The notes under the pieces are model-generated. The model was not told the origin of the DNA. It worked only from the letters and a program-made list of their open reading frames with translations, and ran no database searches. Both the position numbers and the translations under genes were made by a program. This document shows positions 2,126 to 19,866 of a DNA stretch of 39,623 bases, piece by piece; position 1 is the first letter of the stretch, and each line of letters begins with the position of its first letter. Origin of the DNA: a virus. The stretch lies in the IMG/VR virus record IMGVR_UViG_3300043099_000707, positions 1-39,623 of that record; one strand, 5' to 3'.

Positions 2126-2152
2126 CTCTGGCCGCTGTTCGGCGGCAAAGAG
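2126..2152 (-). promoter_or_regulatory. Hairpin H1 sequestering the ribosome-binding site of the adaptor gene
   Basis: Read on the minus strand: CUCU, UU, GCCGC, loop CGAACA, GCGGC, C, AGAG. The GCCGC/GCGGC stem is perfect, and the outer CUCU pairs with AGAG, which is part of the Shine-Dalgarno AGAGGTG. Seven bases separate the arm from the GTG start at 2118. It is the same element as at 7447-7475 and 15122-15148. It lacks a U-tract after the stem, so it is not a typical terminator. Confidence 0.7.
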
Positions 2153-2162
2153 TGGCGTTTGA

Positions 2163-2483
2163 TTACTTCAGCTTTTTCTGGAACCGGCCGCGATTTTTTG
2201 GCGGCATCGGCGCCTCTTCTTCGAACTCCATTTTTGGCTTTGGCTTGCGTCCGCCCATGGCGATGATTTCCACCATGTTTTCGTCGCCTGACTCTTCGTC
2301 CTCGCAATCCTCGCCCATGTCCTCGGTCATCTCTTCTTCGAGCATGTCCGATTCTGCCTCCATGGAGTCGAGCGGCAGATCTTCGGCCGGCTTCTGTTTC
2401 GACTTGTAGCGCTGAACGAGCGAGTCACGCGCGAGCTTCTTGATGTTCGCAAGCGCAGTTTTCATTGCCTTCATGTCATCCAT
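2163..2483 (-). CDS. Acidic hypothetical protein
   Basis: 106 residues. A basic N-terminal helix (ANIKKLARDSLVQRYKSKQK) is followed by a very acidic centre rich in Glu, Asp and Met (about residues 40-75) and a basic Lys/Arg tail. No family recognised. It lies between the spanin candidate and the adaptor, just upstream of hairpin H1. The charge pattern could suit an accessory virion or chaperone-like protein, but nothing shows this. Confidence 0.6.
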   Translation of the reverse strand: MDDMKAMKTALANIKKLARDSLVQRYKSKQKPAEDLPLDSMEAESDMLEEEMTEDMGEDCEDEESGDENMVEIIAMGGRKPKPKMEFEEEAPMPPKNRGRFQKKLK

Positions 2484-2492
2484 GTCATTCCC

Positions 2493-2837
2493 TCATTTCG
2501 CGACGGCAAAGCCGCCAGCAAATCCAGACGCGAGCCCGCCAATGATGCCGACCATCAACAACAAACCGCCGTACGTTCCCCACCACGCGTTGCTATCCGC
2601 GCGGCGTTTGTTCTCTGTCGACTCTGCACGTGCAATGTCGCCACGAGCTTCGCAATCAATCATCAGCTTCTCAAACTTCAGCCGATCAACTTCGCGGCGC
2701 ATCGCCATTGCTTCGGCCGCCTCTCGCGAGCACACAGCACCAGACAACGAGCGATCGACGCGCACCCACGGAATAGAGCTAGGCGCAGACGCAGGTGCCG
2801 CACACGAGCACAAAACAATGAAAGCGATCGCTCTCAC
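2493..2837 (-). CDS. Unimolecular spanin (u-spanin) candidate: lipobox plus C-terminal membrane helix
   Basis: 114 residues, GTG start overlapping the upstream stop. The N-terminus MRAIAFIVLCSCAAP is a short signal peptide with a lipobox-like LCSC. Residues about 37-80 form a charged helix with coiled-coil character (AMRREVDRLKFEKLM). Residues about 88-112 are a glycine-rich membrane segment (GGLLLMVGIIGGLASGF). An outer-membrane lipid anchor, a periplasmic helix and a C-terminal inner-membrane helix in one chain is the layout of phage T1 gp11-type u-spanins, which fuse the inner and outer membranes at the end of lysis. Its place in the lysis cassette supports this. The Cys at -2 of the lipobox is unusual. 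It could instead be an Rz1-like partner of the gene just upstream. Confidence 0.55.
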   Translation of the reverse strand: MRAIAFIVLCSCAAPASAPSSIPWVRVDRSLSGAVCSREAAEAMAMRREVDRLKFEKLMIDCEARGDIARAESTENKRRADSNAWWGTYGGLLLMVGIIGGLASGFAGGFAVAK

Positions 2838-3079
2838 TTGTTTAGTTTCTCCTCCAGTTCTTTGTCGTCTACGGCGTAAATCGCTTTCATCTCGTTAACG
2901 CTGCGCTTCTCTAGAACAGCTCGCTTCTTCTCTGCTGCCTCGATTAGTTTTTCGTGCACGTCACGAGCGTATGCGTCCATAGCTGCCTCGGCGGCCTTCT
3001 TTGCTCCGGCCTTCACCACGAACACGGCAACACAAAGAGCCACACACGCAACGCCGAGAACGATAGCAAGAACCATCAT
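2834..3079 (-). CDS. Small membrane protein with N-terminal helix and charged coiled coil (i-spanin-like)
   Basis: 81 residues from the ATG at 3079, which overlaps the preceding stop (ATGATG). Residues 2-22 (MVLAIVLGVACVALCVAVFVV) form one membrane helix. The rest is a highly charged Ala/Lys/Glu helix (EKLIEAAEKKRAVLEKRS). An N-in anchor with a periplasmic coiled coil is the layout of Rz-type inner-membrane spanins, and the next gene, which it overlaps, carries a lipobox. A longer upstream start in this frame exists, but it would overlap the 32-residue peptide gene and has no better ribosome-binding site. Confidence 0.5.
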   Translation of the reverse strand: MMVLAIVLGVACVALCVAVFVVKAGAKKAAEAAMDAYARDVHEKLIEAAEKKRAVLEKRSVNEMKAIYAVDDKELEEKLNK

Positions 3080-3174
3080 AGATCCATCCTGTCGTCGTCG
3101 AACACACCAGCGAGAAGACACGCCAGAAACAATGTGAGTCCGAGAAACAGCCCTAGGCTCACATAGAAGCTCAC
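3076..3174 (-). CDS. 32-residue single-membrane-span peptide in lysis cassette
   Basis: GTG start at 3174 overlapping the upstream stop (GTGA), with the stop overlapping the next ATG (ATGA). The product is about 32 residues: MSFYVSLGLFLGLTLFLACL, a few more hydrophobic residues, then an acidic tail (FDDDRMDL). It is almost entirely one membrane helix. The perfect coupling on both sides argues that it is translated. In a lysis operon, a tiny peptide like this could be a pinholin, an antiholin or another holin-type regulator. It is shorter than most annotation length cut-offs. Confidence 0.5.
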   Translation of the reverse strand: MSFYVSLGLFLGLTLFLACLLAGVFDDDRMDL

Positions 3175-3323
3175 TCTTTTACGTTCTCCACGATCGCTTT
3201 CATCGTCTCAAACAAGTGGCGCTCAAGCTCAAGTTGAGGCGCAAACTTGGATAGGCCGTATGTCGCCAGCGCGATCGCCATCAACGCCAATGGCTTCCAC
3301 CGCTTCGAAAGAAATTCCTTCAC
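3171..3323 (-). CDS. Small membrane protein, holin-like
   Basis: 50 residues from the GTG at 3323, which overlaps the amidase stop (GTGA) and has a strong ribosome-binding site (GGAGG, 4 nt spacing). A basic N-terminus (KEFLSKRWK) is followed by one membrane helix (PLALMAIALATYGLSKF) and an amphipathic charged C-terminus. A single-span holin (class III type) or holin accessory is plausible given the amidase next to it. No specific family recognised. An upstream in-frame ATG would overlap the amidase by 46 bases and is less likely. Confidence 0.5.
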   Translation of the reverse strand: MKEFLSKRWKPLALMAIALATYGLSKFAPQLELERHLFETMKAIVENVKE

Positions 3324-3742
3324 AGAACCTCCGCTCGAAAAAGACCCATGTTGATCACTGGACAAGCTTTTTTGCAGTCCGGATCGGCTTCGTTGTGCCC
3401 GAGCACGCGATCAATGTGCACGCCGTAGCGAAGCATCAGCTCACGCGTCAGCTTGAGCAGTGAAGCCGTTTGCTGGCTAGTTGGCTTGGTGAGACCAACC
3501 CAGGCCACACCAATGCTAGTCTTGTTTACGGGCGGGCAGTGCGCCCCTTGCACCGACTCCATGCGGCCGCACTCGATCTCACCATTGCGCCTGATCACGT
3601 AGTGATATCCAATGTCATTCCACCCGCGCCCGCTCGGAGGCGGCGCCACATGATCCTTTCGGATCTCAGACACGCCAATAAGCCAAGACTTCGCGTCTGG
3701 GTGTGCTGTGCAATGGATAACTATGGTGTCGATGTGTCTCAA
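3320..3742 (-). CDS. N-acetylmuramoyl-L-alanine amidase endolysin (Amidase_2, T7 lysozyme-like)
   Basis: 140 residues, single catalytic domain. It cleaves the amide bond between N-acetylmuramate and L-alanine in peptidoglycan. Expected zinc ligands are visible: H10 (IVIHCTA), H116 (LGHNEADPD) and C127 in a K-x-C-P motif (KKACP), with Y46 (GYHYVI) as the likely catalytic tyrosine. Length and motif spacing fit T7 lysozyme-type amidases (about 150 residues). There is no signal peptide, so access to the wall needs a holin. Small membrane proteins lie on both sides. In T7 the homologue also inhibits the phage RNA polymerase, but no such polymerase is present here. Confidence 0.9.
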   Translation of the reverse strand: MRHIDTIVIHCTAHPDAKSWLIGVSEIRKDHVAPPPSGRGWNDIGYHYVIRRNGEIECGRMESVQGAHCPPVNKTSIGVAWVGLTKPTSQQTASLLKLTRELMLRYGVHIDRVLGHNEADPDCKKACPVINMGLFRAEVL

Positions 3743-3927
3743 GCTCGATCGGCCTTCGTGTCCAGTTTGAGGTGGAACAGCTCGACGCTTGCCTTGTGAT
3801 CTTCGACGTCAAGCTTTGAATCCAGCTTGCGCTCGACGCGTTCGAGACGACGACCAAGCGCAACATACCCGCACACGTTCACGATGACGAGAACAGCGGC
3901 GTTGAGAATGTCGCTCGGGTTGATCAC
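3739..3927 (-). CDS. Small membrane protein with C-terminal coiled coil, holin or lysis accessory
   Basis: 62 residues from the GTG at 3927, which overlaps the upstream stop (GTGA). One membrane helix near the N-terminus (ILNAAVLVIVNVCGYVAL) is followed by a basic turn (GRRLERVERK) and a heptad-like charged helix. It immediately precedes and overlaps the amidase, the usual place for a holin. A longer start in this frame would overlap the upstream gene and is not needed. Confidence 0.5.
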   Translation of the reverse strand: MINPSDILNAAVLVIVNVCGYVALGRRLERVERKLDSKLDVEDHKASVELFHLKLDTKADRA

Positions 3928-4406
3928 GTTCCGCTTCCGATCACGCAGATCCATTGCGTGGCGTCGACAGCGCAACAAAGCATTGCCTCGCCAGTAGCAA
4001 GAGCAATCGCAGTGTTCGCGCTTGTTGCATTGATTGCGTCACCGCTGGCAGGAAAAACGTCCAGAGTAGAAGCGCTAGCGTTTCCAACAAACACACACAG
4101 ACCAGCGGCCGCAGCCGGAAGCGTTCCGTCATTGCTGGTCGTAACCGTGCCAAAGCGTGTTAGCGTGGTTGTAAAAGCACCGTTGCCCTGTCCGCCCGTG
4201 CCAGCGGTGGCAGAAGCGGCAAGGTCTGACAGCAAAAGGTCGCCGCCAACCGTCACGTTTCCAAAAGCGGCGTTTTGGTTTCCTGTCGAGTAGAGAAGCG
4301 TAACCCCTTGCGGGATCTCGGTGCCATTAACGAAGCGAGAAGCGCCGGCCGCAGTGAGAACAACAAACGCGAGCAACGAAAGAATGACGATTGGGAAATG
4401 TTTCAT
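3924..4406 (-). CDS. Exported protein carrying a fibre-type beta domain
   Basis: 160 residues. The N-terminus MKHFPIVILSLLAFVVLTAA is a clear Sec signal or anchor. The remainder is Gly/Ser/Thr-rich and resembles virion beta domains. The last 75 residues (LPAAAAGLCVFV..., DVFPASGDAIN..., DATQWICVIGSGT) align by eye with the C-terminal domain of the fibre protein encoded at 11109-11912 (LPTASAGLVFGF..., RVISAAGDQIR..., DATTWLVTYGLGG). A signal peptide on such a domain is odd for a virion protein. It could act at the cell surface, for example by masking a receptor. Unproven. It lies between capsid-decoration and lysis genes. Confidence 0.55.
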   Translation of the reverse strand: MKHFPIVILSLLAFVVLTAAGASRFVNGTEIPQGVTLLYSTGNQNAAFGNVTVGGDLLLSDLAASATAGTGGQGNGAFTTTLTRFGTVTTSNDGTLPAAAAGLCVFVGNASASTLDVFPASGDAINATSANTAIALATGEAMLCCAVDATQWICVIGSGT

Positions 4407-4416
4407 TGTGGACCCT

Positions 4417-4731
4417 TCACATTAGAGAGGCGCCGACGCGCCCGGTGGTTGGTGCTACGCCCAGGTGATAAATTCCGATGACGCGCGTGGCTTTCATCTC
4501 AAGCTCGTTGGTTCTCAGATCGACCGCTACAGGCTGACCAGCAAGCAACGGGCAGAAATCAGCGCCGTTGTAGGTCAGCATGCAGTCTTGGTTGAGCGTG
4601 TTTGGAACGAGCAACACTTTGTGGTCGCGCGTACCTGTTACGAGCGTGATTGCAGTGCCCGCCGTCGATGCGGTTACGGATGCCGCCGCCAGCGTTGCAA
4701 CTACGGGCTGAATTTCTTTGCTGTTAGACAT
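4417..4731 (-). CDS. Small virion protein, possible capsid decoration/head fibre
   Basis: 104 residues, rich in Val, Thr and Ala, with a beta pattern (DHKVLLVPNTLNQDCMLTYN). It has a Shine-Dalgarno (GAGGGC). It lies directly after the capsid gene, separated from it by an attenuator-like hairpin. Small beta proteins after the capsid gene are often decoration or head-stabilising proteins. No family recognised with confidence. Confidence 0.5.
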   Translation of the reverse strand: MSNSKEIQPVVATLAAASVTASTAGTAITLVTGTRDHKVLLVPNTLNQDCMLTYNGADFCPLLAGQPVAVDLRTNELEMKATRVIGIYHLGVAPTTGRVGASLM

Positions 4732-4744
4732 CGGTCGCCCTCAG

Positions 4745-4809
4745 AAAAGGAGTCCCGACCGCTCCCGCTTTGGAGAGGAGTAAAACCGCCACGGAAGCGG
4801 CCGGGAGTC
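4745..4809 (-). terminator. Imperfect hairpin with short U-tract after the capsid gene (attenuator)
   Basis: On the minus strand the arm at 4809-4793 (GACTCCCGGCCGCTTCC) pairs with 4766-4750 (GGGAGCGGTCGGGACTC) over 17 positions, with one mismatch and two G-U pairs, around a loop of about 26 nt. It is followed by CCUUUUC. This resembles a leaky rho-independent terminator that lowers expression of the genes after the major capsid protein. Confidence 0.55.
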
Positions 4810-4823
4810 GTAACTCAATCAGC

Positions 4824-4843
4824 ACACAGGAGACCTGTGTTAC
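4824..4843. promoter_or_regulatory. Palindromic site at the end of the capsid gene, related to the 20.7-kb promoter site
   Basis: ACACAGG-AGA-CCTGTGT is a perfect 7+3+7 palindrome, followed by TAC. The 18 bases at 4826-4843 differ at one position from 20706-20723 in the leftward promoter region. It overlaps the capsid stop codon. It may be an operator or stoperator for the phage repressor, or simply an RNA hairpin. Confidence 0.45.
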
Positions 4844-6078
4844 GCCGACTGGGTGATGTTGCTCACGACGAACGAGCGCGCCGGGGCTTCGCAGAACGGC
4901 GCGAAGTCCGAGTACGTGCGCGATTCGACGCCGGCCGTGTTTTCGAGGACCAAGAACTGCTGATCCGCGCCTTGCATGCCGGGGATGCGGTTCGTCACAT
5001 CGGTCGAGCCGATGCGCTTCCACGAGCTGTCTTGCAACAGACCGTAGATGTATCCGCGCCAAATACAGGTGTGCGCCACGAGTTCCATCACACCAGCCAC
5101 CGAGTGGAACTTGATGTAATCGACGCCGCGTTCGAGGATGCTCGGCTTGTACTGACCGAAGTCACGCGCTGATTCCATGTCGTTCACGATGTCCTGCCAG
5201 CTCTCGGGATGGCAGTACACTTTGAACTTGCCTTCACCGCCGCGAGGCATTGCGATCGCCGATGCTTTGGCGATCTTTTGGTACGTCGCAGTACCAGACG
5301 TTGGCGCGTACTGAGATCCGGCCCACAAGGTCGGGTAGCTCGATTGCGCGATACCAAACAGCGTGGTCCCCGACGACGTCAGGATGTTGTGAATGCCCTT
5401 GAATTCTTTGCCGTACGCGCCCTTGAAGTAGATCAAGTGGTTCGCAGCGGTTGCGCCAATGTCATCAACCGTGAGGGAGATGTATGGCGTGGTCGCAGCG
5501 ATTGAAACGCCCGTGATGGTCGTTTCTTTGATCAGGACGCCAGCCGAGGTGCGAACCTCGATCGGCATGCCTTCGGCGCCAACCCAGATGCCCTCGGCGC
5601 TGGTTGCGTCGCTGATTCGAATGGTCGAACCAGACACGCTGCCAACGGTGCCGAGGCCAGATTGGCCGTACAACATGAGCGCTTCAAGCTTCTTTTTGTG
5701 CGAGGTCATGAGATTGGTCAGGACCACCTCAGTTGCCGAACGGAAGCGCGCTTTGCTGTTCACCGCGCGAGACACCGCAGTCCAACCCCATTGCGCACGG
5801 CCAACCATTTGGGTGCCGCTCACGCTCGCGTTTTCGAGCTTGCCGGCCACTGCTGCGTTGAGGTTGATCACCTCTTCGCCAGTGCCGAAGCTGAACCCGT
5901 GTTCGAGCTTCAGTGCAACCGCTTGGTTGTAGTTACCGCCTTGCTCTTTTTCGCCCTCAACGAATTTGATGTCTTTGAGGAGCTTGACGCCATCGGGGAT
6001 CAACTCGACGATGTCGTCGCCATAAACTTGCTTGTAGTTTGCGTTGAGCGAATCGCTAACGCTGTTTGTGGTTGCCAT
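4840..6078 (-). CDS. Major capsid protein
   Basis: 412 residues with strong codon-level coding character and a good ribosome-binding site (AGGAAGG). It follows the scaffold and one small gene. The composition is that of a HK97-fold podovirus or N4/P22-type coat: a helical N-arm (SDSLNANYKQVYGDDIVELI), a long Gly/Ala/Thr beta region and a C-terminal domain (CHPESWQDIVNDMES...). An immunoglobulin-like insert (about residues 150-215, GSVSGSTIRISDATSAEG) may be present. Identification rests on size, position after the scaffold and overall pattern. Confidence 0.75.
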   Translation of the reverse strand: MATTNSVSDSLNANYKQVYGDDIVELIPDGVKLLKDIKFVEGEKEQGGNYNQAVALKLEHGFSFGTGEEVINLNAAVAGKLENASVSGTQMVGRAQWGWTAVSRAVNSKARFRSATEVVLTNLMTSHKKKLEALMLYGQSGLGTVGSVSGSTIRISDATSAEGIWVGAEGMPIEVRTSAGVLIKETTITGVSIAATTPYISLTVDDIGATAANHLIYFKGAYGKEFKGIHNILTSSGTTLFGIAQSSYPTLWAGSQYAPTSGTATYQKIAKASAIAMPRGGEGKFKVYCHPESWQDIVNDMESARDFGQYKPSILERGVDYIKFHSVAGVMELVAHTCIWRGYIYGLLQDSSWKRIGSTDVTNRIPGMQGADQQFLVLENTAGVESRTYSDFAPFCEAPARSFVVSNITQSA

Positions 6079-6083
6079 TCAGA

Positions 6084-6551
6084 TCACGCCTTCCTGTAGA
6101 AAACTTCTTGGGTGAATCGCTGCACGTTGGTGTTTGCGTCGATGTCGACGCCTGCCATCGATTGCGAGTAACAAATGTTCTTGAGTGCGCTGACGCCGGA
6201 TGCCGACGTACCGCACAGGGTTGGCGTTGCGGTGGTGAGGTCGCCGGAGATCTTCACCGTGACCGGCAAACAGATCAGCGAGTCAGCATCACCAACGGTG
6301 ACAATGAACCCAACGACCGCCGGATCTGCATCGTCGTCGAGTGCGGTCATGTTTGAACCAGAGTCGACAGTTGCAGGCGTGCCCGAGTCGGTGCCTTCCT
6401 CGATGAAGATGCGAAATGCGGGGTTCGCGGTGGTGGCCGATGAGCTGGCGTCTGTGGTGTTGCCAGTAATCTCGAAATACGACCAAACGCGGCCAAGTCG
6501 AAGGCGGAACGCCTCGGCTTCGTCGCTCTTATTGTGCGGTGTAACGCTCAT
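6084..6551 (-). CDS. Hypothetical head-associated protein
   Basis: 155 residues, acidic and rich in Ser, Thr, Ala and Asp, predicted beta (VVGFIVTVGDADSLICLPVTVK). It sits between scaffold and capsid with 5 nt before the capsid gene. No family recognised. It could be a minor capsid or decoration protein. Confidence 0.5.
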   Translation of the reverse strand: MSVTPHNKSDEAEAFRLRLGRVWSYFEITGNTTDASSSATTANPAFRIFIEEGTDSGTPATVDSGSNMTALDDDADPAVVGFIVTVGDADSLICLPVTVKISGDLTTATPTLCGTSASGVSALKNICYSQSMAGVDIDANTNVQRFTQEVFYRKA

Positions 6552-6553
6552 TT

Positions 6554-7441
6554 CTAAGCTCCAATTCGTTTGTTAATCCGCGCCTCAAGCTCAGCGCGCG
6601 TGAGGCCGTTCTTCGGCTTCGACGGCGCGGATGCTTTCGGTGCGGACTGTGGTTTTTGCGGCGTGCCCTGCGCTCGTCGCAGTGCAGCCTTGCGGGCAAT
6701 TTCAAGTTCCGAGTCATCGAAAAACGATTCGCGCTCGTGATCGTCCTTGGCGGATTGGATCATCTCGCGACGTTCAGCGATGAGGTCTGATTTTACTTCT
6801 GCCGCAATGTCTTCAACGGAAGCCTCGACACCTGAACTCCAATACGCCTCGGCTTTTTCGGCCATCCGAGCGACGACACGCGCCGTCTTGGGTAGGCCAG
6901 TAGCTTGGATCGCGCTTGAGAATTTACGGTCAAGTGCTTGCTCCCAACGCGTCACTTCCGCGTTGGCTTTTGCCTGCTTCTCTTGCTCTTCGCGCTGCGC
7001 CTGTTCGGCTTTGTAGCGCTCGTTTTCCTCACGTAGCGCGCGAGCTTCTTTCTCGGCTGGCGATAGAGAATGCTCTGCGAGCGCCTCAGTGAGGATCTGT
7101 TCGGCGATTTTTATTGGATCGTGGCCGGCTTTGCGGAGTGCGGCCTTGTAGTCCTTGCCAAGCGAGTCGAGAATTGACTGCGCATCGGCCTTTAGAGCGG
7201 CTGCTTCTTTGCGCTCTTTCGCCGCGGCCTGCATTTTCTCGTACGCACCGCGGTCAAGTTCTTTCCGCTTGGTGTGAAGTTCGCGAAGCTCGGAGCGCTT
7301 GAGCTTTACGCCTTGATCAATCTCGTATTCCGGATCATCGGCGACGACTGGCGTCGTGTCTACTACCGCATCAGAGGGTGATGCGCCGCTCGCGCTTTCG
7401 GCTGGCGCACTAGGCGCAGCCGTAGAAACAGAGTCTCCCAA
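6554..7441 (-). CDS. Capsid scaffolding protein
   Basis: 295 residues, mostly charged helix. A flexible Ala/Ser/Pro N-terminus leads into long coiled-coil segments (ELRELHTKRKELDRGAYEKM; EKEARALREENERYKAEQAQ). A C-terminal basic tail (GLTRAELEARINKRIGA) matches the usual capsid-binding end of scaffolds. It assembles coat subunits around the portal and is then lost. Start is TTG at 7441. In-frame TAA TAG stops lie in the loop of the upstream hairpin, so translation must begin after the hairpin. Confidence 0.75.
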   Translation of the reverse strand: MGDSVSTAAPSAPAESASGASPSDAVVDTTPVVADDPEYEIDQGVKLKRSELRELHTKRKELDRGAYEKMQAAAKERKEAAALKADAQSILDSLGKDYKAALRKAGHDPIKIAEQILTEALAEHSLSPAEKEARALREENERYKAEQAQREEQEKQAKANAEVTRWEQALDRKFSSAIQATGLPKTARVVARMAEKAEAYWSSGVEASVEDIAAEVKSDLIAERREMIQSAKDDHERESFFDDSELEIARKAALRRAQGTPQKPQSAPKASAPSKPKNGLTRAELEARINKRIGA

Positions 7442-7446
7442 GTTCG

Positions 7447-7475
7447 CCCCAGGCCGCTATTAGGCGGCAAAAGAG
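7447..7475 (-). promoter_or_regulatory. Hairpin H2 sequestering the ribosome-binding site of the scaffold gene
   Basis: Minus strand: CUCU, UUU, GCCGC, loop CUAAUA, GCGGC, CU, GGGG. The stem is perfect. The outer CUCU can pair with GGGG through two G-C and two G-U pairs, and GGGG is the only purine-rich element before the TTG start (5 nt away). It is the same element as 2126-2152 and 15122-15148. Confidence 0.65.
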
Positions 7476-7485
7476 TGCACATTTG

Positions 7486-7507
7486 CGTTACAGCCAAACG
7501 TGTTACA
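7486..7507. promoter_or_regulatory. GTTACA direct repeat / operator-like half-sites before the scaffold gene
   Basis: GCGTTACAG and GTGTTACAC lie 6 nt apart in the 103-bp gap between the 80-residue gene and the scaffold. The second matches the CGTGTTAC half-site of the switch operators. The rest of the gap (7508-7544) holds a weak CTATG/CATAG stem-loop and no gene. Confidence 0.3.
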
Positions 7508-7544
7508 CGAGATATGAACTATTTGCGCGATCTATGCAATCTTT

Positions 7545-7787
7545 TCATAGCTTAGGCGCGACGACTTCCTGAACCACGTGCATCATGTCGAGCAACCGGA
7601 GCGCTGAACCAAGACGGCGCTTCGCGGGACCGTCCGGCATTCCGACAAGTTTTTTCGTGTATTCGTCGACCGCGTGACGACACATTTTCAGAAGCGCGGA
7701 GTCGGGAACGCGCAGCGGCGTACGGATGACCCAGCCCCGGCGCAGGTCTAGGAAGATTTCGCAGTCGTCTTTCTGTGTCTCGATCAT
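7545..7787 (-). CDS. Hypothetical protein
   Basis: 80 residues from the ATG at 7787 that overlaps the upstream stop (ATGA). Contains a beta N-terminus (CEIFLDLRRGWVIRTPLRVP) and a helical C-terminus (LLKMCRHAVDEYTKKL; LGSALRLLDMMHVVQEVV). No family recognised. It is the last gene before the gap and hairpin H2. Confidence 0.5.
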   Translation of the reverse strand: MIETQKDDCEIFLDLRRGWVIRTPLRVPDSALLKMCRHAVDEYTKKLVGMPDGPAKRRLGSALRLLDMMHVVQEVVAPKL

Positions 7788-7978
7788 TCTGCGAGCTTCG
7801 CCGCAAGCCAGCGCTTGATCCGCTTGCGTAACGGGGTTTTGGCCGATCCGTTTTCGAGCGCCACGATGTCGTTGCGCAGCGACTCGCACGTCATGGTTAG
7901 CCGGCCGATCGCCTCGGACATCTCCTCATGACTCAAAACTGGTTCGGGGACCTTCACGACGTAACTAATATCACCCAT
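7784..7978 (-). CDS. Small helical hypothetical protein
   Basis: 64 residues, ATG start, overlapping its downstream neighbour by 4 bases and the upstream methyltransferase by 8. A helical segment (HEEMSEAIGRLTMTCESLRN) is followed by a basic C-terminus (LRKRIKRWLAAKLAE). No family recognised. Confidence 0.5.
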   Translation of the reverse strand: MGDISYVVKVPEPVLSHEEMSEAIGRLTMTCESLRNDIVALENGSAKTPLRKRIKRWLAAKLAE

Positions 7979-8513
7979 TAACGATCTCCTTTTTGGTGAG
8001 CGTAATATACAAATCGTCAGCGACGTTTTGATAGTGCATCAGAGCGAATCCACGAGCCGACTCTTCGCGCGCTGCCCATGTCGATCCAGCGCCAAACGAG
8101 AATCCCCAAGACGCTTCGAAATCGCACTTGAGCGGGTGATAGTGGCCGAGCTTGTTCGCGTCGCGCCAAGCCTTGCTGAGGTAGTACAGCGAGGCCTCGT
8201 GGATTGGTGGCCATGCATGCGTCCAATCCTGGATCGAGCGCGCGGAGTACGCATACGGAACGATGATCGTTGCCTTTGCTCCAGGCTTCATCACGCGGTA
8301 CAGCTCATTGAAGAACGCGCAGCGCTCGGGGCCAGCCAAATGCTCGACGAAATGCGAGCTATGCGCCTCCTCGATGCTGTCGCTCTCGAACGGCCACGGA
8401 GTCACCGAGAGATCGTGCACGATGTCCGCGCCGCATTCCGCCGATGAGTCTACGCCAGTGAAACCTTCGCGCTTATTCTGTCCGCATCCTAGATCGATTT
8501 TCATGTTCACCAT
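7971..8513 (-). CDS. SAM-dependent methyltransferase (class I)
   Basis: About 180 residues. Motif I is near the N-terminus (IDLGCGQNKREGFTGVD), followed by the acidic loop, then SSHFVEHLAG and a Methyltransf_11-like centre (ELYRVMKPGAKATIIVPY). The domain begins almost at residue 1, as in short sugar or fatty-acid-type O-methyltransferases. Start is ambiguous: ATG at 8513, GTG at 8510 on the upstream stop, or ATG at 8504. It follows and overlaps the glycosyltransferase, so both probably act on one acceptor, perhaps a virion or surface glycan. The acceptor is unknown. Confidence 0.75.
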   Translation of the reverse strand: MVNMKIDLGCGQNKREGFTGVDSSAECGADIVHDLSVTPWPFESDSIEEAHSSHFVEHLAGPERCAFFNELYRVMKPGAKATIIVPYAYSARSIQDWTHAWPPIHEASLYYLSKAWRDANKLGHYHPLKCDFEASWGFSFGAGSTWAAREESARGFALMHYQNVADDLYITLTKKEIVNG

Positions 8514-9244
8514 ACGATGTCTCGCGCGTGGTCGTAGTGTCCGCATTTAACGCGCGTGTCGCATGCGAACTTGTAGCCGAGCGCACCGGCGCGCTCGTAG
8601 AAATACAGATCTTGGGTGTACGCTTTGGTTCCCGTGCCAGGCACGTATTCCTGCAACGTTTTGAACCATGGTTTCACGAATCGCTCGTCACGAAACATGT
8701 CGAGACGGAACAGGTTGAAGCCCATGCCGAGACCACGCGCGGGGTTGATGCTTTCCGGCTTCGGTAGTTGCGGGCGGAAGTTGAGCACCGGATCGTCAGG
8801 GTGGCCGTAGATCATCGGCTGCCCTTCCTCGCCCTTCGTCCAGTAGATTCCCTGCACCACGTCGTACTTGACCCCGTCGACCTTGCCCTCGATCGCCTCG
8901 TACAGCTTCAGCAGGCCATCAGGTGGCGGCATCACGTCGTCCTCAAGCGTGCAAAGGTATTTGAACTTGTGACCCGCGTCTAAGAGCTGCTGGATGAACA
9001 CATTGTACGCGTCGCCCACCTCGTAGCCGCACATGAAGTACGGGCCGGCCACGGCCTGATTCATCGGCCGGATCAGGCTCATCCACGACGTCATCACGCG
9101 CGGGCATAGCGATGGTCCGTTGCTGCGCGTTGGAACCACAATGATCGTGCTGAGATCTTTGTACGTACTCCCGCGCATGAGTCTTTCGCGCGCTTGTGGG
9201 AGATTCGCGTTGTGAAAACCGGCTTCTGGTCCGTAGACTTTCAT
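8507..9244 (-). CDS. Glycosyltransferase, GT-A fold
   Basis: 245 residues. The N-terminal Rossmann-like strand STIIVVPTRSN, a metal-binding acidic motif (LCTLEDDVMPPPDGLLKL) near residue 100 and the C-terminal acceptor-side segment (TQDLYFYERAGALGYKFACD, then VKCGHYDH) are characteristic of phage and bacterial GT-A enzymes. It would transfer a sugar from a nucleotide sugar, with donor and acceptor unknown. It directly follows the large fibre gene (ATGA overlap) and precedes a methyltransferase. That suggests modification of fibre, capsid or host surface glycan. Loss of either DDV aspartate would inactivate it. Confidence 0.8.
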   Translation of the reverse strand: MKVYGPEAGFHNANLPQARERLMRGSTYKDLSTIIVVPTRSNGPSLCPRVMTSWMSLIRPMNQAVAGPYFMCGYEVGDAYNVFIQQLLDAGHKFKYLCTLEDDVMPPPDGLLKLYEAIEGKVDGVKYDVVQGIYWTKGEEGQPMIYGHPDDPVLNFRPQLPKPESINPARGLGMGFNLFRLDMFRDERFVKPWFKTLQEYVPGTGTKAYTQDLYFYERAGALGYKFACDTRVKCGHYDHARDIVW

Positions 9245-11100
9245 CGTGATGTGTTCGCCATGAGGAAGTAGATGTGACGACCGCTAGCCGATCCGCTGTT
9301 GCTGATGATCGACGTATTGAACGACGCAGGGAAGATGTTTTGAAGCCGAACGCTCGCGTTCGTGGCGCTCCGAGTTGTCGAAAACGCGCCATGGTAAGGG
9401 AACAATCTGTTCGTTGTGGCCGCGTTGATGCCAACGTCGACGATATGCCACATACCAGCGCTGCCTTCGCTAATGTGCGCGTGAGACAATCCGCCGACAA
9501 CGTTAGCGGCTGCGGTCTGCGTGGTGCATCCGATTGCGAGGTAGTACATGCCGGCGCTAAAAGATGTGGTGTTTTGATCGCCCATCACAACCGCTCTGTT
9601 GCCCGTGAGCGAGGCTGAAATATTGCCACCTGCGGAGGCAGAATTAGACGTTGAGTTAGTCCCGAAAAACGAGCGCCACGAAACGCCCGTCACGCTGTTC
9701 TGTGAAACCTCAAGCACGTTTTGCCATGCCGTGATCAGGCTCATCGAGCTACCGTTCAGCGAGTAAAGACCGGCGCTGTGTGCAAAGGTAAACGAGCCGG
9801 TACCTGCCGCGGTACCATAGCTCATGATCATGCGATTCTGCGACACGCGCAGATTGCCAGGCAGCTGGATCGGTCGAAGGTAAATCGAAACGGTCGTGTT
9901 GGTAGATGCCCCGCCAGGGTTCGCGGTAGCGCCCTTGTCCATGCTGGTTTGACCGAGAGAGTTGACCATGTCTGGCCAAAAAGAAAGCTCTGCTGCTGCG
10001 CCGCCGCCTGCGTTGACGCTTGCGGTGATCACCGAGCTGTTGCTCATGCCGAACGTCACACCGTTAGCGTTGCTGAACAGCACCGTGCCTGTCGTGGCTG
10101 CGGTTTGCGTGCCTGCTGCCAGGATGTTCACGCCATCGCCAGCGCCGCCGCCGCTCGGAACGGAGATCACAACCGATCCGTTTGTGACGCCGACGCTGGC
10201 GATACCCTCGCCGCGATAGACGATGCTTGAAGCGTTGTACGTGCCCGAGCTTGACTGCGTCGAGTTTCCGGCTGCGAACGCACTGATCTGCTGATTGCTC
10301 TGTGACGTGATTCCGTTGTGGCTTCCTACGATGCTGCCGTTAGACGAGTAAAACGAAAGCCCGTTCAGGTTTCCGAACGTCGCAGTCTGGAAGGTGAAAC
10401 TGCCGTTGCTACCAGACAACGCTTGATTGCTCTGGCTGGTGAGCCCGTTGTGTGAGCCGGTGATAACAGAACCATTCAATCCGAACGTTATCCCGTTGCT
10501 GTTGCTCAGGGTGAACGCGCTCAGGTTGTTAGACGTCGTGCCGGCGCTGAGGTTGATGGCAGACAGCAGGCCCGCGGTGCTCGGGACGCTGTACGAGCCG
10601 ATCACGCTTCCGTTGCTGTTGCTGAACGTGAATCCGTTCGAGTTGGCGAAATTCAGCGTCTGAAACGTCGTAGAGCCGCCGCTTGCGCTGAACGCCTGGT
10701 TAGACTGCGAGGTCAGACCGTTGTGGCTCGCCGTGACAGTCGCGCCGTTGAGGCCAAACGAAACGCCGTTGGAGTTGCTGAAGACGATCGTGCCCGTGGT
10801 GTTCGCAGTCGATCCGCCAGCCGCGATGATGTTGACGCCGTCCGCTCCGCCGCCTCCAGCGCCGGCCGAGATCGAGAGCGACATGGCATTAGCGGCCGTC
10901 GATCCGCTTAGAGTGACATTGGGGCCGCCCGCGAGAAAGAGCGAACCCCCGAGCGACATCGTGTTGCCGGCGGTGTTCCCGCCCACTGACAGCAACGTGG
11001 GAGGGTAAATCAGTTGCGTAGATTGGTTCGAAGAAAACGCAACGCCGAGGTTTGCGGTGCCTGTGATGCTCGGTGGATTTAGATAGTTAGTGGCTGCCAT
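9241..11100 (-). CDS. Repeat-containing tail fibre protein
   Basis: 619 residues with a GAGGT ribosome-binding site. An N-terminal YLNPPSITGTANLGVAFS segment leads into at least four repeats of SNG-[IVLF]-[TS]-F, G-S-V-I, S-H-N-G-[LI]-T-S-Q-S-N-Q, a pattern typical of trimeric beta fibres. The distal 250 residues (from about ELSFWPDMVNSL) form a non-repetitive C-terminal domain ending RHIYFLMANTSR, likely the receptor-contact head. It sits between portal and scaffold genes, an unusual place for a fibre. Confidence 0.75.
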   Translation of the reverse strand: MAATNYLNPPSITGTANLGVAFSSNQSTQLIYPPTLLSVGGNTAGNTMSLGGSLFLAGGPNVTLSGSTAANAMSLSISAGAGGGGADGVNIIAAGGSTANTTGTIVFSNSNGVSFGLNGATVTASHNGLTSQSNQAFSASGGSTTFQTLNFANSNGFTFSNSNGSVIGSYSVPSTAGLLSAINLSAGTTSNNLSAFTLSNSNGITFGLNGSVITGSHNGLTSQSNQALSGSNGSFTFQTATFGNLNGLSFYSSNGSIVGSHNGITSQSNQQISAFAAGNSTQSSSGTYNASSIVYRGEGIASVGVTNGSVVISVPSGGGAGDGVNILAAGTQTAATTGTVLFSNANGVTFGMSNSSVITASVNAGGGAAAELSFWPDMVNSLGQTSMDKGATANPGGASTNTTVSIYLRPIQLPGNLRVSQNRMIMSYGTAAGTGSFTFAHSAGLYSLNGSSMSLITAWQNVLEVSQNSVTGVSWRSFFGTNSTSNSASAGGNISASLTGNRAVVMGDQNTTSFSAGMYYLAIGCTTQTAAANVVGGLSHAHISEGSAGMWHIVDVGINAATTNRLFPYHGAFSTTRSATNASVRLQNIFPASFNTSIISNSGSASGRHIYFLMANTSR

Positions 11101-11108
11101 GTGTTACC

Positions 11109-11912
11109 TCAAGAGTCGATTGTCCAAGGACCACCAAGACCGTATGTTACGAGCCACGTCGTGGCGTCTTGCGCCTCCAGTTGCAGCACCGCTCCGACGA
11201 CATTTGCGCGAATATACCCGGCCGTCGCGCTCGCCTGATCCATCAATCGGATCTGATCTCCGGCCGCGGAAATCACGCGCAAAAATTGCGCCGCCATCAC
11301 GCGGAAGCCAAACACGAGACCGGCCGATGCGGTCGGCAGAGTGATTTGTACCTCACCAGCTGCGCCGGCGTTGTTGTAGATCTTCGACGAATCACCAGCG
11401 ACAAGCGTCGTGTTGGACGTCTGTGCGGTGATCGTGAGAACGATGCCAGCCTTAGCAGCTAGGTCTGTCGTCAGGTTCGTTACGCTCGATTGCGCCACCG
11501 CGCCAAAACCAAGCGTTGTGCCCGATCGGCGCAGCACGTCGCCATCAGACGCGGCCGCGATGTCAGCAGGATCCCCCGCGCTGTTTGCGCTGCGACCAAT
11601 CACCGAGAGAGCAGCAGAGTCGCGGAGCTTCGCATTACTGATGCCGTTGTCGCGCACTGATAGCGTGACCGCCGCACCCGCGCCGCCGTCCGTGACCTGT
11701 AGCGTCGCTCCGTCATCCGCAAGCGTTCGCTCATTCGTCAGCGTCGCGTCTGTCGTGATCGTGACGTATGTTGCAGATGTTGGGGCGCCGCCGCCACCAC
11801 CGCTAGGCGCTTCCCATGACCAACCATCCGGCGCAGTCGAGTTACGCGTTAGTATCTCGCCGTCGATGCCGTCGTCTGGGATGTTATCGCCACCGCCGCC
11901 GATGCCACTCAC
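11109..11912 (-). CDS. Tail fibre/appendage protein
   Basis: 267 residues from the GTG at 11912, which overlaps the upstream stop (GTGA). A Gly-rich start (SGIGGGGDNIPDDGIDG) precedes the fibre signature ISNAKLRDSAALSVIGRS...DPADIAAASDGDVLRR that recurs in many phage fibres. The C-terminal beta domain ends LVTYGLGGPWTIDS. The C-terminal domain is paralogous by eye to the exported protein at 3924-4406. An upstream ATG in this frame would overlap the previous gene and is not needed. Confidence 0.7.
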   Translation of the reverse strand: MSGIGGGGDNIPDDGIDGEILTRNSTAPDGWSWEAPSGGGGGAPTSATYVTITTDATLTNERTLADDGATLQVTDGGAGAAVTLSVRDNGISNAKLRDSAALSVIGRSANSAGDPADIAAASDGDVLRRSGTTLGFGAVAQSSVTNLTTDLAAKAGIVLTITAQTSNTTLVAGDSSKIYNNAGAAGEVQITLPTASAGLVFGFRVMAAQFLRVISAAGDQIRLMDQASATAGYIRANVVGAVLQLEAQDATTWLVTYGLGGPWTIDS

Positions 11913-12169
11913 TTGATGGCCTCGCGTAGTCGCTTCTCTGTAACCACCTTGCGTTGATGCTGGCGAAGCGCTGCGCACACCTGACATCCGCACGATTCGT
12001 TTTCGAGCGAGCGCGCGAGCTTCACAAGTTTGGTCATCAACTCGAATTGCTCGCCGTCGTCGGTTTTAGGATCGAGCAATCCTGCGATTTTCTGATAGCG
12101 CTGTGACTCGATGGTGAGACGGCGCGCTTTTTTCATGCGCGCGATTTTCGACTTGAAGCACTCAAACAT
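11909..12169 (-). CDS. Basic hypothetical protein with CxC-x-x-C
   Basis: 86 residues, ATG. A strongly basic N-terminal helix (KSKIARMKKARRLTIESQRY), an acidic middle and SCGCQVCAAL near residue 60, which could bind a metal or pair across a dimer. The last residues are basic. No family recognised. It is wedged between a lipoprotein gene and a fibre gene. Confidence 0.5.
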   Translation of the reverse strand: MFECFKSKIARMKKARRLTIESQRYQKIAGLLDPKTDDGEQFELMTKLVKLARSLENESCGCQVCAALRQHQRKVVTEKRLREAIK

Positions 12170-12465
12170 CAGTCACCCCCGTACCAGCGCGCATTGATGC
12201 ACTCTGGCAGATTGGTTGCACTCACAGCCCGGATCAGAGTCGCGCAATCCACCGTATCTAGCGGCGGCAGATCTTCGACGAACGGAAGGAACACAGGATC
12301 GACGTGCTCAAGGCACGCCACACACGCTGGCTCGTCGCTGACGACTCCGCACGATGCCGCAAGCGCACACGCCTTGACGGTGTTTGGCGGTTCGATCGAC
12401 GCAGACCCACACGAAGCGAGCAAGAGCAGCGCAGCGCGAATCACTGAGCGCCTACGTTTACCCAT
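12169..12465 (-). CDS. Cysteine-rich lipoprotein
   Basis: 98 residues from the ATG at 12465. A classical lipoprotein signal: basic n-region (GKRRRSVIR), hydrophobic core (AALLLLA) and lipobox LASC|GSA. The mature part has several further cysteines (KACALAASCG, EPACVACLEH, VDCATL, LPECINA), spaced as if in disulphide pairs. That implies a folded periplasmic or outer-membrane domain. Lipoproteins in late phage operons are often superinfection-exclusion morons, but no family is recognised here. It overlaps the upstream gene by 25 bases. Confidence 0.6.
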   Translation of the reverse strand: MGKRRRSVIRAALLLLASCGSASIEPPNTVKACALAASCGVVSDEPACVACLEHVDPVFLPFVEDLPPLDTVDCATLIRAVSATNLPECINARWYGGD

Positions 12466-13022
12466 GTTGGGGTTGTTGCCGTGCACACACGGAGAACGCC
12501 TCCGGTGAACATGAACATGTCACCAACCTGACAACTCGTAGGGTTCGTGTCGAGCACCGGCATTCTGATTTGCCCAACCGCAGGGCTCGTGGTGTCACCC
12601 GAAACTTGTAGCGCAATGCTGCCAAGCGAATTCTCGGCAAGAACGCCTACGCCAGACGAAGTGCCAACGCCCCACACACCGATTCCAACACCAACACCCT
12701 GACCCTTAACGCCTGCGCTGCCAGCACTATTGACACCAGCGCCAAGCACGCCACACACGTTTGCAGCGTTTGCTGCCTTTCCGTAAATCGCCGCAAAATC
12801 AGACCCAGCGGCAACGATGCCGGCCGGCACCGTGATGCCCCAACTTCCGTTGACGGTCAGATTTCCGCCCGTGACGCCAACCGCACCCGTAAACGTGGGG
12901 CTAGGAGGAATGCCGCCACCAACGCCCGAGGCCAGCGCGATACCGCTCGCCAGCACCGCGATGAACAACGCGGCGTAAACGGCTCTGACAGTCTCACGTA
13001 AAACGATCTTGAGAATTCTCAT
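12441..13022 (-). CDS. Exported fibre-like protein with Gly-Val repeats
   Basis: 193 residues (GTG at 13025 or ATG at 13022, both on the portal stop). The N-terminus has a basic stretch and a membrane/signal segment (AVYAALFIAVLASGIALASG). The body is G-V-x-G repeats (VCGVLGAGVNSAGSAGVKGQ; VWGVGTSSGVGVLAEN), typical of beta-helical phage fibres. The C-terminus (SCQVGDMFMFTGGVLRVCTA...TWVNVG) is the common end domain of fibre proteins. A signal peptide on such a protein is unusual and parallels the gene at 3924-4406. Confidence 0.6.
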   Translation of the reverse strand: MRILKIVLRETVRAVYAALFIAVLASGIALASGVGGGIPPSPTFTGAVGVTGGNLTVNGSWGITVPAGIVAAGSDFAAIYGKAANAANVCGVLGAGVNSAGSAGVKGQGVGVGIGVWGVGTSSGVGVLAENSLGSIALQVSGDTTSPAVGQIRMPVLDTNPTSCQVGDMFMFTGGVLRVCTATTPTWVNVGAQ

Positions 13023-15115
13023 CACTGCGCTCCCATGTTTTGTGTGACGGTTGCCGTGTCTGGCACTGGCACCTGTTCGCCCGTCGGGCCGGCTGCGGTT
13101 TGCTCGCCACCCTCGGGCGGCTGCGTTGGCGACTGTCCGCCTTGCTGCGGCGGCTGCGTTGCGTTCGGATCTTGCGGCTGCGCTTGCATCGCCATCTGTG
13201 CGGCAAGATCGCGGTGTTGCTGGATGTGATTCAGGACCACTTCGACGATTGGCGAACTCATGCGGACCTTCGGCGAGTCGAGAAGCGTAAGGTGCTTCGC
13301 GATGTGTAGGTCGTGCGGATCGGTGACCAGCACTGGCACTTGCGCGTTGCCGTTGAGTAGTTGCTCGTTCTCCTGCGCCATGAGGTTGTTGCGCAGGAGC
13401 TTGTCCGCAATGAGCGCGTCGAGCTGGCCCGTGGTGCGCACCGTGAAGTAATCGTCAGGGCTCGTGATCATGCCCTGTTGCACGAGGAATTCCGCCTCTT
13501 CGCGGTTGCCTGCGATCGTCTTAGACATCGGGTTGACGTTCTCGGCGACGACACGAGCAACTGACGCAAACGTAGCGCCGCTCCACGATGCCATGCGCGC
13601 CACGCGGTCTTTGCCTAGGATTGCCGTCACTTGCGGAGTTTGCGCAAAGCGTTTGACGATGAGCAGCAGCATGTTTCCGAAATCGTTCACAAGCTGCTGA
13701 TGCGAGGCTTGTAGCGCGCTCTGGAACTGCACCGACATCGATTGCAGCAATCCCAGCGCGCGACCTGATGCGGCTTTTGAGATCACATCGGCGTTTCCAG
13801 TGATCGCGCCGTTGATGCCCATGAGCTGCTGGCCTTCGTTCGACAGCATCTCAATCGCTTTGAGTGACTGGCCTTCATTACTCGAAACGCTGAACGGCTC
13901 GGGCTTCTGTTTGCCCTCGGCGAACTCGATCACGTTCAGGCCGCCCGCGAGCGATTGGACGCTGATGTCAGACCCGCGCTCAACCGCTATATTGCCGACG
14001 CCAAACGCGGCTTCGTTCGTCATCACGGACGACCAACACATGTTCAGCGCTTGCTGGATCGGCGCGAGGTCGTTACCAGGCGCGTAGCCGAACACTGTTC
14101 CAACGCCGTTTGCAGCGCGCACAGTGAGCAGCGGGATCACCGCTTGGTTTTCGTCGTCGCGGTATGGGTTGTCTTCGTCCTTGAGGATGATGTCAGGCGA
14201 GAGCGCGTAGACTAGCCGCCCGTTTGGAAGCACCATGCTCGAACGCCAAAAGCACTTGTAGACCGGCACGAGATCGGTTTCATCGTCCCATCCCCACGCG
14301 GCAGACTCGCCCTCTGTTTTTGAGTCGAGTTGCAGGATCTCTTCGCGCTTGTCCGGATAGCGCTCCGCAAGCTCGAAGCGGTTCATGTAATCGCGGACGA
14401 TCACCCAATCGAGTTCGTCGTCGTCCTCGCAATTGGTATCAAAATACACATCGAGGAACGAGCGCGCTTTGACGTACACGTCGCCGCGGTTGACGATCGC
14501 GCCCGAGTCGTCTGGAGCGTATGGCGTGCCAGCGCTCGGGTCCCACTCCATGAGCACGTGACCCGCTGGCGTGAAGAGACAAAGCTCGGTGGCCTTGTGC
14601 AATTGCTTGCCGCTGCGTCCGCGCTTCCAGTGCGTCAGGTAGTAATCGAGCAACCCGTCGTATAGCTGCGCCGCGAGCAACGAAGACGCTTCGTCATTCG
14701 TCGCCTTCGCTTGCTGCGCCACCTTCTGCGCCGTGGTCATGTTCAAGATATGCGTGAGCAAGTTTCGGAATTTGTTGAACCGCACGCGCAGCGATTCGTC
14801 TTGCTCGCCTTCGACGCTGAACGAACGATCGCCAAACGTGACGCCGTCCGGTTCCGCGTTGTGGTACATGCGAAAATTCTCGCGAGCCTGGCGCATGACG
14901 CCGTTGCCTTCGGTCATCTTCTTCCACGTCTCGGCGCGCTTGAAGATCTCTTGTCCGAGATCGACACTGAAGCGCGGCTTGCGACCGAAGTAGTCGCCAA
15001 GCGGATCTTTGAGGCCGAACGGCGCCTTCGGATCTTCCTCGGGCTCTTCCGGCAACTGTTCAGGAGCGCTGAGATCTAGCGGCGGCGGCGGATCGAATTC
15101 TGGCAGGTCGAGCAA
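13022..15115 (-). CDS. Portal protein
   Basis: 697 residues, the size of P22-like and other podovirus portals. A Pro/Glu-rich N-terminus is followed by a portal core (FRNLLTHILNMTTAQKVAQQ; YVKARSFLDVYFDTNCEDDD; PLLTVRAANGVGTVFGYAPG) and a long helical barrel region. The last 80 residues are low-complexity Gln/Pro/Gly. The dodecameric portal is the DNA gate, terminase docking site and head-tail junction. The start is TTG at 15115, 6 nt after GGAG. An in-frame TAA lies in the loop of hairpin H3, so translation cannot start upstream of it. Confidence 0.85.
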   Translation of the reverse strand: MLDLPEFDPPPPLDLSAPEQLPEEPEEDPKAPFGLKDPLGDYFGRKPRFSVDLGQEIFKRAETWKKMTEGNGVMRQARENFRMYHNAEPDGVTFGDRSFSVEGEQDESLRVRFNKFRNLLTHILNMTTAQKVAQQAKATNDEASSLLAAQLYDGLLDYYLTHWKRGRSGKQLHKATELCLFTPAGHVLMEWDPSAGTPYAPDDSGAIVNRGDVYVKARSFLDVYFDTNCEDDDELDWVIVRDYMNRFELAERYPDKREEILQLDSKTEGESAAWGWDDETDLVPVYKCFWRSSMVLPNGRLVYALSPDIILKDEDNPYRDDENQAVIPLLTVRAANGVGTVFGYAPGNDLAPIQQALNMCWSSVMTNEAAFGVGNIAVERGSDISVQSLAGGLNVIEFAEGKQKPEPFSVSSNEGQSLKAIEMLSNEGQQLMGINGAITGNADVISKAASGRALGLLQSMSVQFQSALQASHQQLVNDFGNMLLLIVKRFAQTPQVTAILGKDRVARMASWSGATFASVARVVAENVNPMSKTIAGNREEAEFLVQQGMITSPDDYFTVRTTGQLDALIADKLLRNNLMAQENEQLLNGNAQVPVLVTDPHDLHIAKHLTLLDSPKVRMSSPIVEVVLNHIQQHRDLAAQMAMQAQPQDPNATQPPQQGGQSPTQPPEGGEQTAAGPTGEQVPVPDTATVTQNMGAQ

Positions 15116-15121
15116 ATCGCA

Positions 15122-15148
15122 CTCCGGCCGCAGTTACGCGGCAAAGAG
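15122..15148 (-). promoter_or_regulatory. Hairpin H3 sequestering the ribosome-binding site of the portal gene
   Basis: Minus strand: CUCU, UU, GCCGC, loop GUAACU, GCGGC, C, GGAG. The inner stem is perfect, and CUCU pairs with GGAG (three Watson-Crick and one G-U pair). GGAG is the Shine-Dalgarno for the TTG start at 15115. The 122-bp gap between terminase and portal holds nothing else that I can identify. Confidence 0.7.
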
Positions 15149-16877: not shown

Positions 16878-17254
16878 TTCTCATCCCCCTTCGCCTTCGC
16901 GGCGATTTGTTGCAGTCGTTCCACGTCGTCGTTGCTGAGTTTCGTGAGATCGATCTTGTTACCGAGCGGCTCGCCATCGGGGCCGGACAGCTCGACCATC
17001 GTCACGGGCTTCCCATAGCGGTACTCACAGGCGAGCTTCATACACGTACTATCACCCGTTTCGACTCCGGCCTTGATCGCGTCGATTAGGACATCGGAGC
17101 CGTCCTCTCGCCTGAACGCCGCATCAAGCAGTTCTGACACCCGGTGACGGATCTCGCGCGTGCCCTTTGGCGTTCCCGCCGGGTTTCCGCTCTGACCAGG
17201 CTTGAACGGCCTTCCGCGCGGTTTGGCTGCATTGTCGCTGCTACCAGCGGTCAT
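16874..17254 (-). CDS. DUF5681-type protein, likely terminase small subunit
   Basis: 126 residues. The N-terminal motif GRPFKPGQSGNPAGTPKG is the DUF5681 signature found in phage genes just upstream of large terminases. A helical segment follows (REIRHRVSELLDAAFRRE; CMKLACEYRYGKP), then a charged C-terminus. A DNA-recognition role in packaging is inferred from family and position. It overlaps both neighbours by 4 bases. Confidence 0.7.
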   Translation of the reverse strand: MTAGSSDNAAKPRGRPFKPGQSGNPAGTPKGTREIRHRVSELLDAAFRREDGSDVLIDAIKAGVETGDSTCMKLACEYRYGKPVTMVELSGPDGEPLGNKIDLTKLSNDDVERLQQIAAKAKGDEK

Positions 17255-17523
17255 ATCCCCATCCTGTCGGCAATCTTCTGCGTCTCGCGCTCGATGCTTT
17301 CTAGGCGGCGAAAGACATACTCGCGCATAGTTTCGTCGTTTTCTGTCCGCTTGGCGCGTCGCTGTATTCGCTCGGTTTCAGACGTACCCTTGACGATGCG
17401 ATAACCCTGACGACGGCGAGCATATTCGTATTTCAGCTCACGCAGGTCGTATTGCGGTTCTTCGCTGCTTTGTGGCGCGGTGATTTCTCGGATCTCGGCG
17501 ATGCGTTGATCTCGCTCGGTCAT
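17251..17523 (-). CDS. Charged helical hypothetical protein
   Basis: 90 residues, rich in Arg and Glu (ELKYEYARRRQGYRIVKG; RRLESIERETQKIADRM). Overlaps both neighbours (ATGA). No family recognised. The composition suggests a coiled coil or nucleic-acid contact. Confidence 0.5.
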   Translation of the reverse strand: MTERDQRIAEIREITAPQSSEEPQYDLRELKYEYARRRQGYRIVKGTSETERIQRRAKRTENDETMREYVFRRLESIERETQKIADRMGI

Positions 17524-19738: not shown

Positions 19739-19866
19739 TCCCACACCAGCACAGCGAGCCCAAGAACGAAGCCAACAAGACACGCGCCCACGAGCCACGA
19801 GATGATCGCGGAACGGCTATAGTAGCGCTTCGATTCGCGGCAATCGACGTAGAGCGCGGCGTTCAT
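19735..19866 (-). CDS. 43-residue single-span membrane protein
   Basis: From the ATG at 19866 on the upstream stop (ATGA), ending in the ATG of the next gene. The N-terminus is polar (NAALYVDCRESKRYYSRS) and then one membrane helix (AIISWLVGACLVGFVLGLAV) ends at LVWE. Coupling on both sides supports translation. No function recognised. In the early part of the leftward operon it could be an exclusion protein. Confidence 0.45.
   Translation of the reverse strand: MNAALYVDCRESKRYYSRSAIISWLVGACLVGFVLGLAVLVWE

Follow-up and report, generated by a model that had tools for sequence, protein, structure and literature searches.

A hairpin repeated at the ribosome-binding sites of three late genes of a phage genome, a possible RNA operator

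The window analyzed here, the whole 39,623-bp stretch of IMG/VR virus record IMGVR_UViG_3300043099_000707 (a circular record of 39.6 kb with a 127-bp end repeat, from an uncultured tailed phage), contains three copies of one hairpin directly before the Shine-Dalgarno (SD) sequences of a portal gene, a probable scaffold gene and a probable head-tail adaptor gene. There is good support for a common, sequence-specific hairpin at three ribosome-binding sites (RBSs), each of which opens a block of overlapping late genes. We favor the reading that these copies represent a single RNA operator, present at the first RBS of the portal, capsid and tail blocks and bound by a putative protein, and give it a probability of roughly 45%. 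The evidence is that of a single phage, with three copies in one genome.

The element has the form CUCUUU(U)-GCCGC-N[UG]AA[CU]N-GCGGC-C(U)-SD and occurs exactly three times in the window, on the minus strand only. Copy 1, before the portal gene (15122-15148), reads CUCU-UU-GCCGC-GUAACU-GCGGC-C-GGAG-N6-TTG together with its start (15148-15113), with CUCU at 15148-15145, the stem arms at 15142-15138 and 15131-15127, and the SD GGAG at 15125-15122. Copy 2, before the scaffold gene (7447-7475), reads CUCU-UUU-GCCGC-CUAAUA-GCGGC-CU-GGGG-N5-TTG (7475-7439), with CUCU at 7475-7472, the stem arms at 7468-7464 and 7457-7453, and the SD GGGG at 7450-7447. Copy 3, before the adaptor gene (2126-2152), reads CUCU-UU-GCCGC-CGAACA-GCGGC-C-AGAG-N7-GTG (2152-2116), with CUCU at 2152-2149, the stem arms at 2146-2142 and 2135-2131, and the SD AGAG at 2129-2126. 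An initial annotation of this DNA had described the same element at these three places, with a perfect inner stem and an SD 5-7 nt before the start. Sequence and coordinates proved exact, the stem is perfect in all three copies, and the SD-to-start spacings are 6 (portal), 5 (scaffold) and 7 nt (adaptor). Its loop consensus, N-[UG]-A-A-N-N, holds and can be narrowed to N-[UG]-A-A-[CU]-[UA]. The distance from element to start is near-constant at 33-34 nt. Copy 2 carries one extra base on either side of the stem (UUU with CU), which keeps the symmetry of the hairpin, while the flanks of the element show no alignment between copies.

The pattern CTCTTTN{0,1}GCCGCN6GCGGC has three matches in the window, all on the minus strand, and none in any of 100 dinucleotide shuffles. 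A covariance model built from the three copies scores them at 38-41 bits, against 12.7 bits for the next-best site in the window. On these two results we rejected a chance origin of the three copies, which is certainly ruled out. The bare stem GCCGC-N6-GCGGC with two mismatches is as frequent as expected by chance, so that the exact specific family stands out and not GC palindromes in general. We also notice a degenerate element-like hairpin, GCCGC-N9-GCGGCCGG (11.7 bits), at 2183-2211 on the minus strand. It falls within the last part of the coding sequence of gene 2163-2483, some 30 nt upstream of copy 3, and may be due to chance.

All three genes behind the copies lie on the minus strand. 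The portal protein gene (13022-15115, TTG start) matches phrog_156 (portal, E 6e-11), has IMG/VR relatives of up to 36% identity and heads a block of overlapping genes down to 7545. The gene for the terminase large subunit (TerL; 15238-16671, minus strand; phrog_2, E 4.5e-17) is located upstream of copy 1. The second gene (6554-7441, TTG start) is probably the scaffold gene, because its homologues of ~300-350 aa sit directly before the major capsid protein (MCP)-like gene in relatives, as scaffolds do. It heads the block 6554-7441, 6084-6551 and 4840-6078, the last being the MCP-like gene itself (minus strand), which has relatives of up to 42% identity and no PHROG or Pfam match. The third gene (1183-2118, GTG start) probably encodes a head-tail adaptor and heads the tail block, from 1186 across the circle junction to 30265, through split nozzle-like genes. 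For the adaptor, a low-confidence structure (predicted local distance difference test score 56), predicted from an alignment of the window and IMG/VR rows only, finds its best PDB matches among phage portal-tail and tail-complex structures (9k09, 8zkk, SU10, crAss001, N4). Homology of this protein to distant relatives begins at residue 1, which supports the GTG start.

The gaps to the upstream gene measure 122 (portal), 103 (scaffold) and 44 nt (adaptor), whereas most neighbors overlap, in agreement with the initial annotation. Each copy stands at the head of a series of genes that overlap or abut, and control at these points could thus govern a whole block. The same annotation had pointed to the TTG, TTG and GTG starts. 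These are correct but weak as evidence on their own, because 19 of the 48 gene calls in the phage are non-ATG. It had also placed in-frame stops in the loops for two genes. For the portal, TAA lies within the loop; the scaffold TAG is at the loop/stem edge, and for the adaptor a TGA stands immediately before the GTG.

Computed folding of the element alone gives the proposed structure. The inner 5-bp stem contributes about -9 kcal/mol (-9.4 in copy 1), and with natural flanks it is predicted with a pairing probability (P) above 0.8 for scaffold and adaptor and of 0.27-1.0 for the portal. The outer arm, in which CUCU faces the SD, adds -2.8 (portal), -1.9 (scaffold) and -2.8 kcal/mol (adaptor). 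In longer context, its inner three pairs are predicted at P ~0.6-0.8 in all contexts for the adaptor, and the arm at P 0.05-0.7 for the portal and 0-0.18 for the scaffold. Opening the SD tetramer has a computed cost of 4-6 kcal/mol. The wider region -14 to -4 is among the hardest in the genome to open (ranks 1, 4 and 5 of 48 genes), for the most part on account of the 3′ arm of the GC stem within it. A self-sufficient SD-masking hairpin would keep the SD stably paired in its native leader, and the computed folds do not predict this. The earlier claim of an SD locked by the outer arm in every copy was not borne out, given the low arm energies, the near-zero P for the scaffold and a cost of SD opening no higher than that of shuffled leaders.

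The outer arm had further been said to look like a structure that is kept. It can indeed pair in all three copies, but the changes are one-sided, from A to G opposite an invariant CUCU. Covariation among the three copies is not significant: five pairs never vary, and the sole two-sided change, seen only in the ungapped register, is reached by 164 of 500 shuffles. RGRG-type SDs that could pair with CUCU also stand at this spacing before 13 of the 45 other genes, so that the pairing possible in every copy carries little weight as evidence. The flank CUCUUU stays invariant while its partner varies (GGAG, GGGG, AGAG), which suggests that it is itself recognized and read as sequence. Of the shared translational switch first proposed, the sequence-specific hairpin at three block-heading RBSs is retained, but not the SD lock in all three. 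The firm and well-supported part is thus a sequence-specific hairpin adjoining the SD, not a demonstrated SD lock.

In the operator reading, the stem, its UAAC/GNRA-like hexaloop and the 5′ flank CUCUUU would be recognized by a putative protein of phage or host. Binding would keep the weak outer arm closed or cover the adjacent SD, so that the 30S subunit could not load. When the protein is absent or titrated, the 30S subunit would melt the outer arm of 2-3 kcal/mol and translate. Since the genes that follow overlap, the yield of each block would depend on its first RBS, so that the virion parts would be controlled together. An RNA operator is supported by the sense orientation of all copies and their common distance from the start codon, by their absence from shuffles, by the conserved and asymmetric loop AA and CUCUUU, by the matched extra bases of copy 2, by the stable inner stem, by the opening cost of the region -14 to -4 and by the position at block heads. 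The T4/RB69 gp43 operator and the phi21 boxB may serve by analogy as precedents of the same loop class.

Several results weigh against this reading. The outer arm hardly forms for the scaffold in context, the inner stem of the portal copy competes with other folds in some contexts, and the cost of opening the SD tetramer does not stand out from that of shuffled leaders (reached by 42, 162 and 72 of 200 shuffles for the three copies). No relative at ~25-42% protein identity carries the element; no such hairpin precedes their portal genes, and the covariance model has no match in a further 1.12 Mb. Moreover, no binding protein was identified for the element. Separately, we notice a small charged protein with an arginine-rich stretch TSETERIQRRAKRTENDE at 17251-17523 (minus strand), just upstream of a gene like that of the terminase small subunit and of TerL. 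It is a weak candidate for an RNA-binding protein.

Among the nearest known systems is the T4/RB69 gp43 operator, a UAAC-loop hairpin near or overlapping the RBS and bound by a phage protein that represses translation (PMC3014915). The loops here contain UAAC, UAAU and GAAC, and the hairpin stands 1-2 nt from the SD. Unlike that operator, which is bound by the phage DNA polymerase and controls the polymerase gene, the element is common to three structural genes (portal, scaffold-like and adaptor-like), and its stem and flank sequences are unrelated. Cluster K mycobacteriophages contain a 13-bp start-associated sequence (SAS), GGGATAGGAGCCC, in 11-19 copies at non-structural genes, 3-7 bp before the starts, and the associated ESAS repeats are regarded as sites on DNA rather than as hairpins (PMC3203893). 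Both systems are lineage-specific repeats that contain the SD, in one orientation and within a few nt of starts (5-7 nt here), whereas the three starts of the window have no GGGATAGGAGCCC sequence. Repeated start-associated elements, phage translational operators and SD hairpins are already known kinds. This sequence family, with its placement before portal, scaffold and adaptor, is not described in the sources searched. The initial statement that no described element has this consensus holds for Rfam and for the other collections examined, although loops of this class are known from phage hairpins that proteins bind.

No Rfam family matches the window above its gathering threshold, and a known RNA family was rejected on this basis. 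An intrinsic terminator was likewise rejected, as the stem is followed by an SD with no U run and none of the three copies is among the terminator scan hits. Distant relatives (TerL, portal, scaffold and MCP; ~25-42% protein identity) are numerous and mostly AT-rich. Close relatives were not found in phage records, IMG/VR or bacterial genomes, which is no proof that the element is private to this phage, and a search of the bacterial genome collection gave no close portal or TerL relatives. The covariance search of related phages suggested earlier thus found the element absent from all relatives recovered. Across IMG/VR, the strict pattern has two matches and a loose pattern at least 120; all those listed are inside open reading frames (ORFs), away from starts. 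The only model match in a relative (24.7 bits) falls in the AT-rich Silvanigrella phage CP017838 (18825-18798, minus strand), inside the adaptor coding sequence and not at its start. This match is probably chance.

The relatives contain a different repeat, TTAACAACTATA, on the late strand, with a strand bias of 145:11 (76:5 in a second set); it is absent from the window. It is found before the portal gene, in the neighborhood of the MCP leader and before the gene that follows MCP; at the first and last of these places it often adjoins the SD. One relative locus (L237) has TTAACAACTATA(TATAG) sites at 6214, 9492, 13033 and 14630. The repeat looks like a late promoter with a T7-type resemblance. 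A search with the T7 RNA polymerase (RNAP) found no T7-like enzyme in the window or the related records searched, with T7 itself as a working positive control. The presence of TTAACAACTATA there shows that gene expression in the group is controlled at some of the junctions where the element lies, which keeps a DNA reading alive for the window.

That DNA reading takes the element as a phage late promoter, or as an operator for a dimeric DNA-binding protein (a 5-6-5 palindrome of one helical turn), that opens each late transcription unit, the RNA beginning at the SD or close to it. Promoters are expected at block heads, and the promoter-like TTAACAACTATA of distant relatives often abuts the SD at comparable junctions. 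We nevertheless consider this unlikely. The conserved loop AA at the center and the left flank CUCUUU are asymmetric, unlike a simple DNA palindrome, and the spacing to the start is near-constant here versus 23 to >60 nt for TTAACAACTATA. The window contains no single-subunit RNAP by the T7 RNAP search and no sigma-70-like excess near the copies, and if a promoter overlapped the SD, the leader would be no longer than ~10 nt. A protein-free lock in cis, silencing read-through transcripts as at T4 e, soc and 49, or responding to temperature, is improbable. The T4 hairpins provide a precedent, with the SD in a helix before a late gene start, and in each copy of the element the outer arm has the capacity to pair with the SD. 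Between 15 and 37 °C, this outer helix drops in strength from about -4.2 to -1.9 to -2.8 kcal/mol. The T4 hairpins are gene-specific, however, whereas here one sequence is repeated with a weak SD helix. Within its flanks the arm lacks the necessary strength, above all in the scaffold copy, SD opening does not exceed the shuffled-leader null, and a lock of this kind leaves the conserved loop unexplained. Very improbable is the spread of a short sequence by recent recombination between gene junctions, with no regulatory function. There are only three copies in one genome and none in relatives. Against such a spread, every copy has a perfect stem and a fixed place before the start, while the flanks do not align.

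Another reading starts from the flank. CUCUUU corresponds to positions 2-7 of the boxA consensus GYTCTTTAANA (PMC5725501), so the element may be a nut-like site with CUCUUU as boxA (NusB/S10) and the hairpin as boxB, where an antitermination/Nus complex would reload at three points of the late transcript and possibly repress the adjacent start. Such repression is known from the suhB leader, where boxA, 6 nt from the SD, represses translation through Nus factors (PMC5725501). As there, the gene to be controlled has a boxA-like sequence close to its SD, and CUCUUU is invariant though its pairing partner varies; unlike there, the full boxA consensus is not matched and a hairpin is added. The phi21 boxB, with the loop CUAACC in a GNRA-like fold bound by N (PMC12550061), is the nearest of the lambdoid nut sites, which share with the element a CUCUUU boxA core followed by a short GC hairpin and perhaps a UMAC/GNRA-like loop. 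Judged from sequence, the portal loop GUAACU would fall in the same class with its UAAC, the scaffold loop has UAAU and the adaptor loop only GAAC; a 5-bp stem follows CUCUUU directly in all three. On the other side, boxA positions G1, A8 and A9 are absent from every copy, and the sites overlap SDs at three gene starts within the late region instead of following an early promoter. In lambda, boxA and boxB are several nt apart, whereas the spacer here is 0-1 nt. No N-like gene is recognizable and no protein scanned has a Pfam match to N; of the several arginine-rich stretches in phage proteins, such as that of ORF 17251-17523, none is convincing as N-like. We regard a nut-like site as unlikely, to the same degree as the DNA reading.

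The balance of portal, scaffold, capsid and tail proteins in tailed phages is mostly explained by promoter strength and gene order. If true, a shared RNA operator at three block-opening RBSs would be a translational mechanism for that balance and would imply a new protein-RNA pair. A nut-like element would instead mean antitermination sites fused to RBSs inside a late operon. The operator reading has a wider form, in which the portal, capsid and tail blocks would be coupled in their translation by a single RNA-binding protein, such as one of the virion or of its assembly. A double-stranded DNA phage would then set its virion stoichiometry by a translational regulon, through a previously undescribed family of elements, and we consider this rather unlikely.

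A few other features of the window deserve mention. The nozzle-like protein of relatives appears split between genes 1-1186 plus 39354-39623 and 37084-39354 (all minus strand), which meet at TAATG. The first of these spans the circle junction and contains 177-bp (59-aa) repeats that resemble beta-propeller (NHL-type) blades. The gap after the MCP-like gene (4732-4839, minus strand) contains a very strong GC hairpin, of -49.6 kcal/mol over 111 nt, towards the SD of gene 4417-4731, which may be a terminator or another leader structure. At 19944-20103, a low-complexity GGCGTAGGCGGC array lies inside or antisense to ORF 19863-20399.

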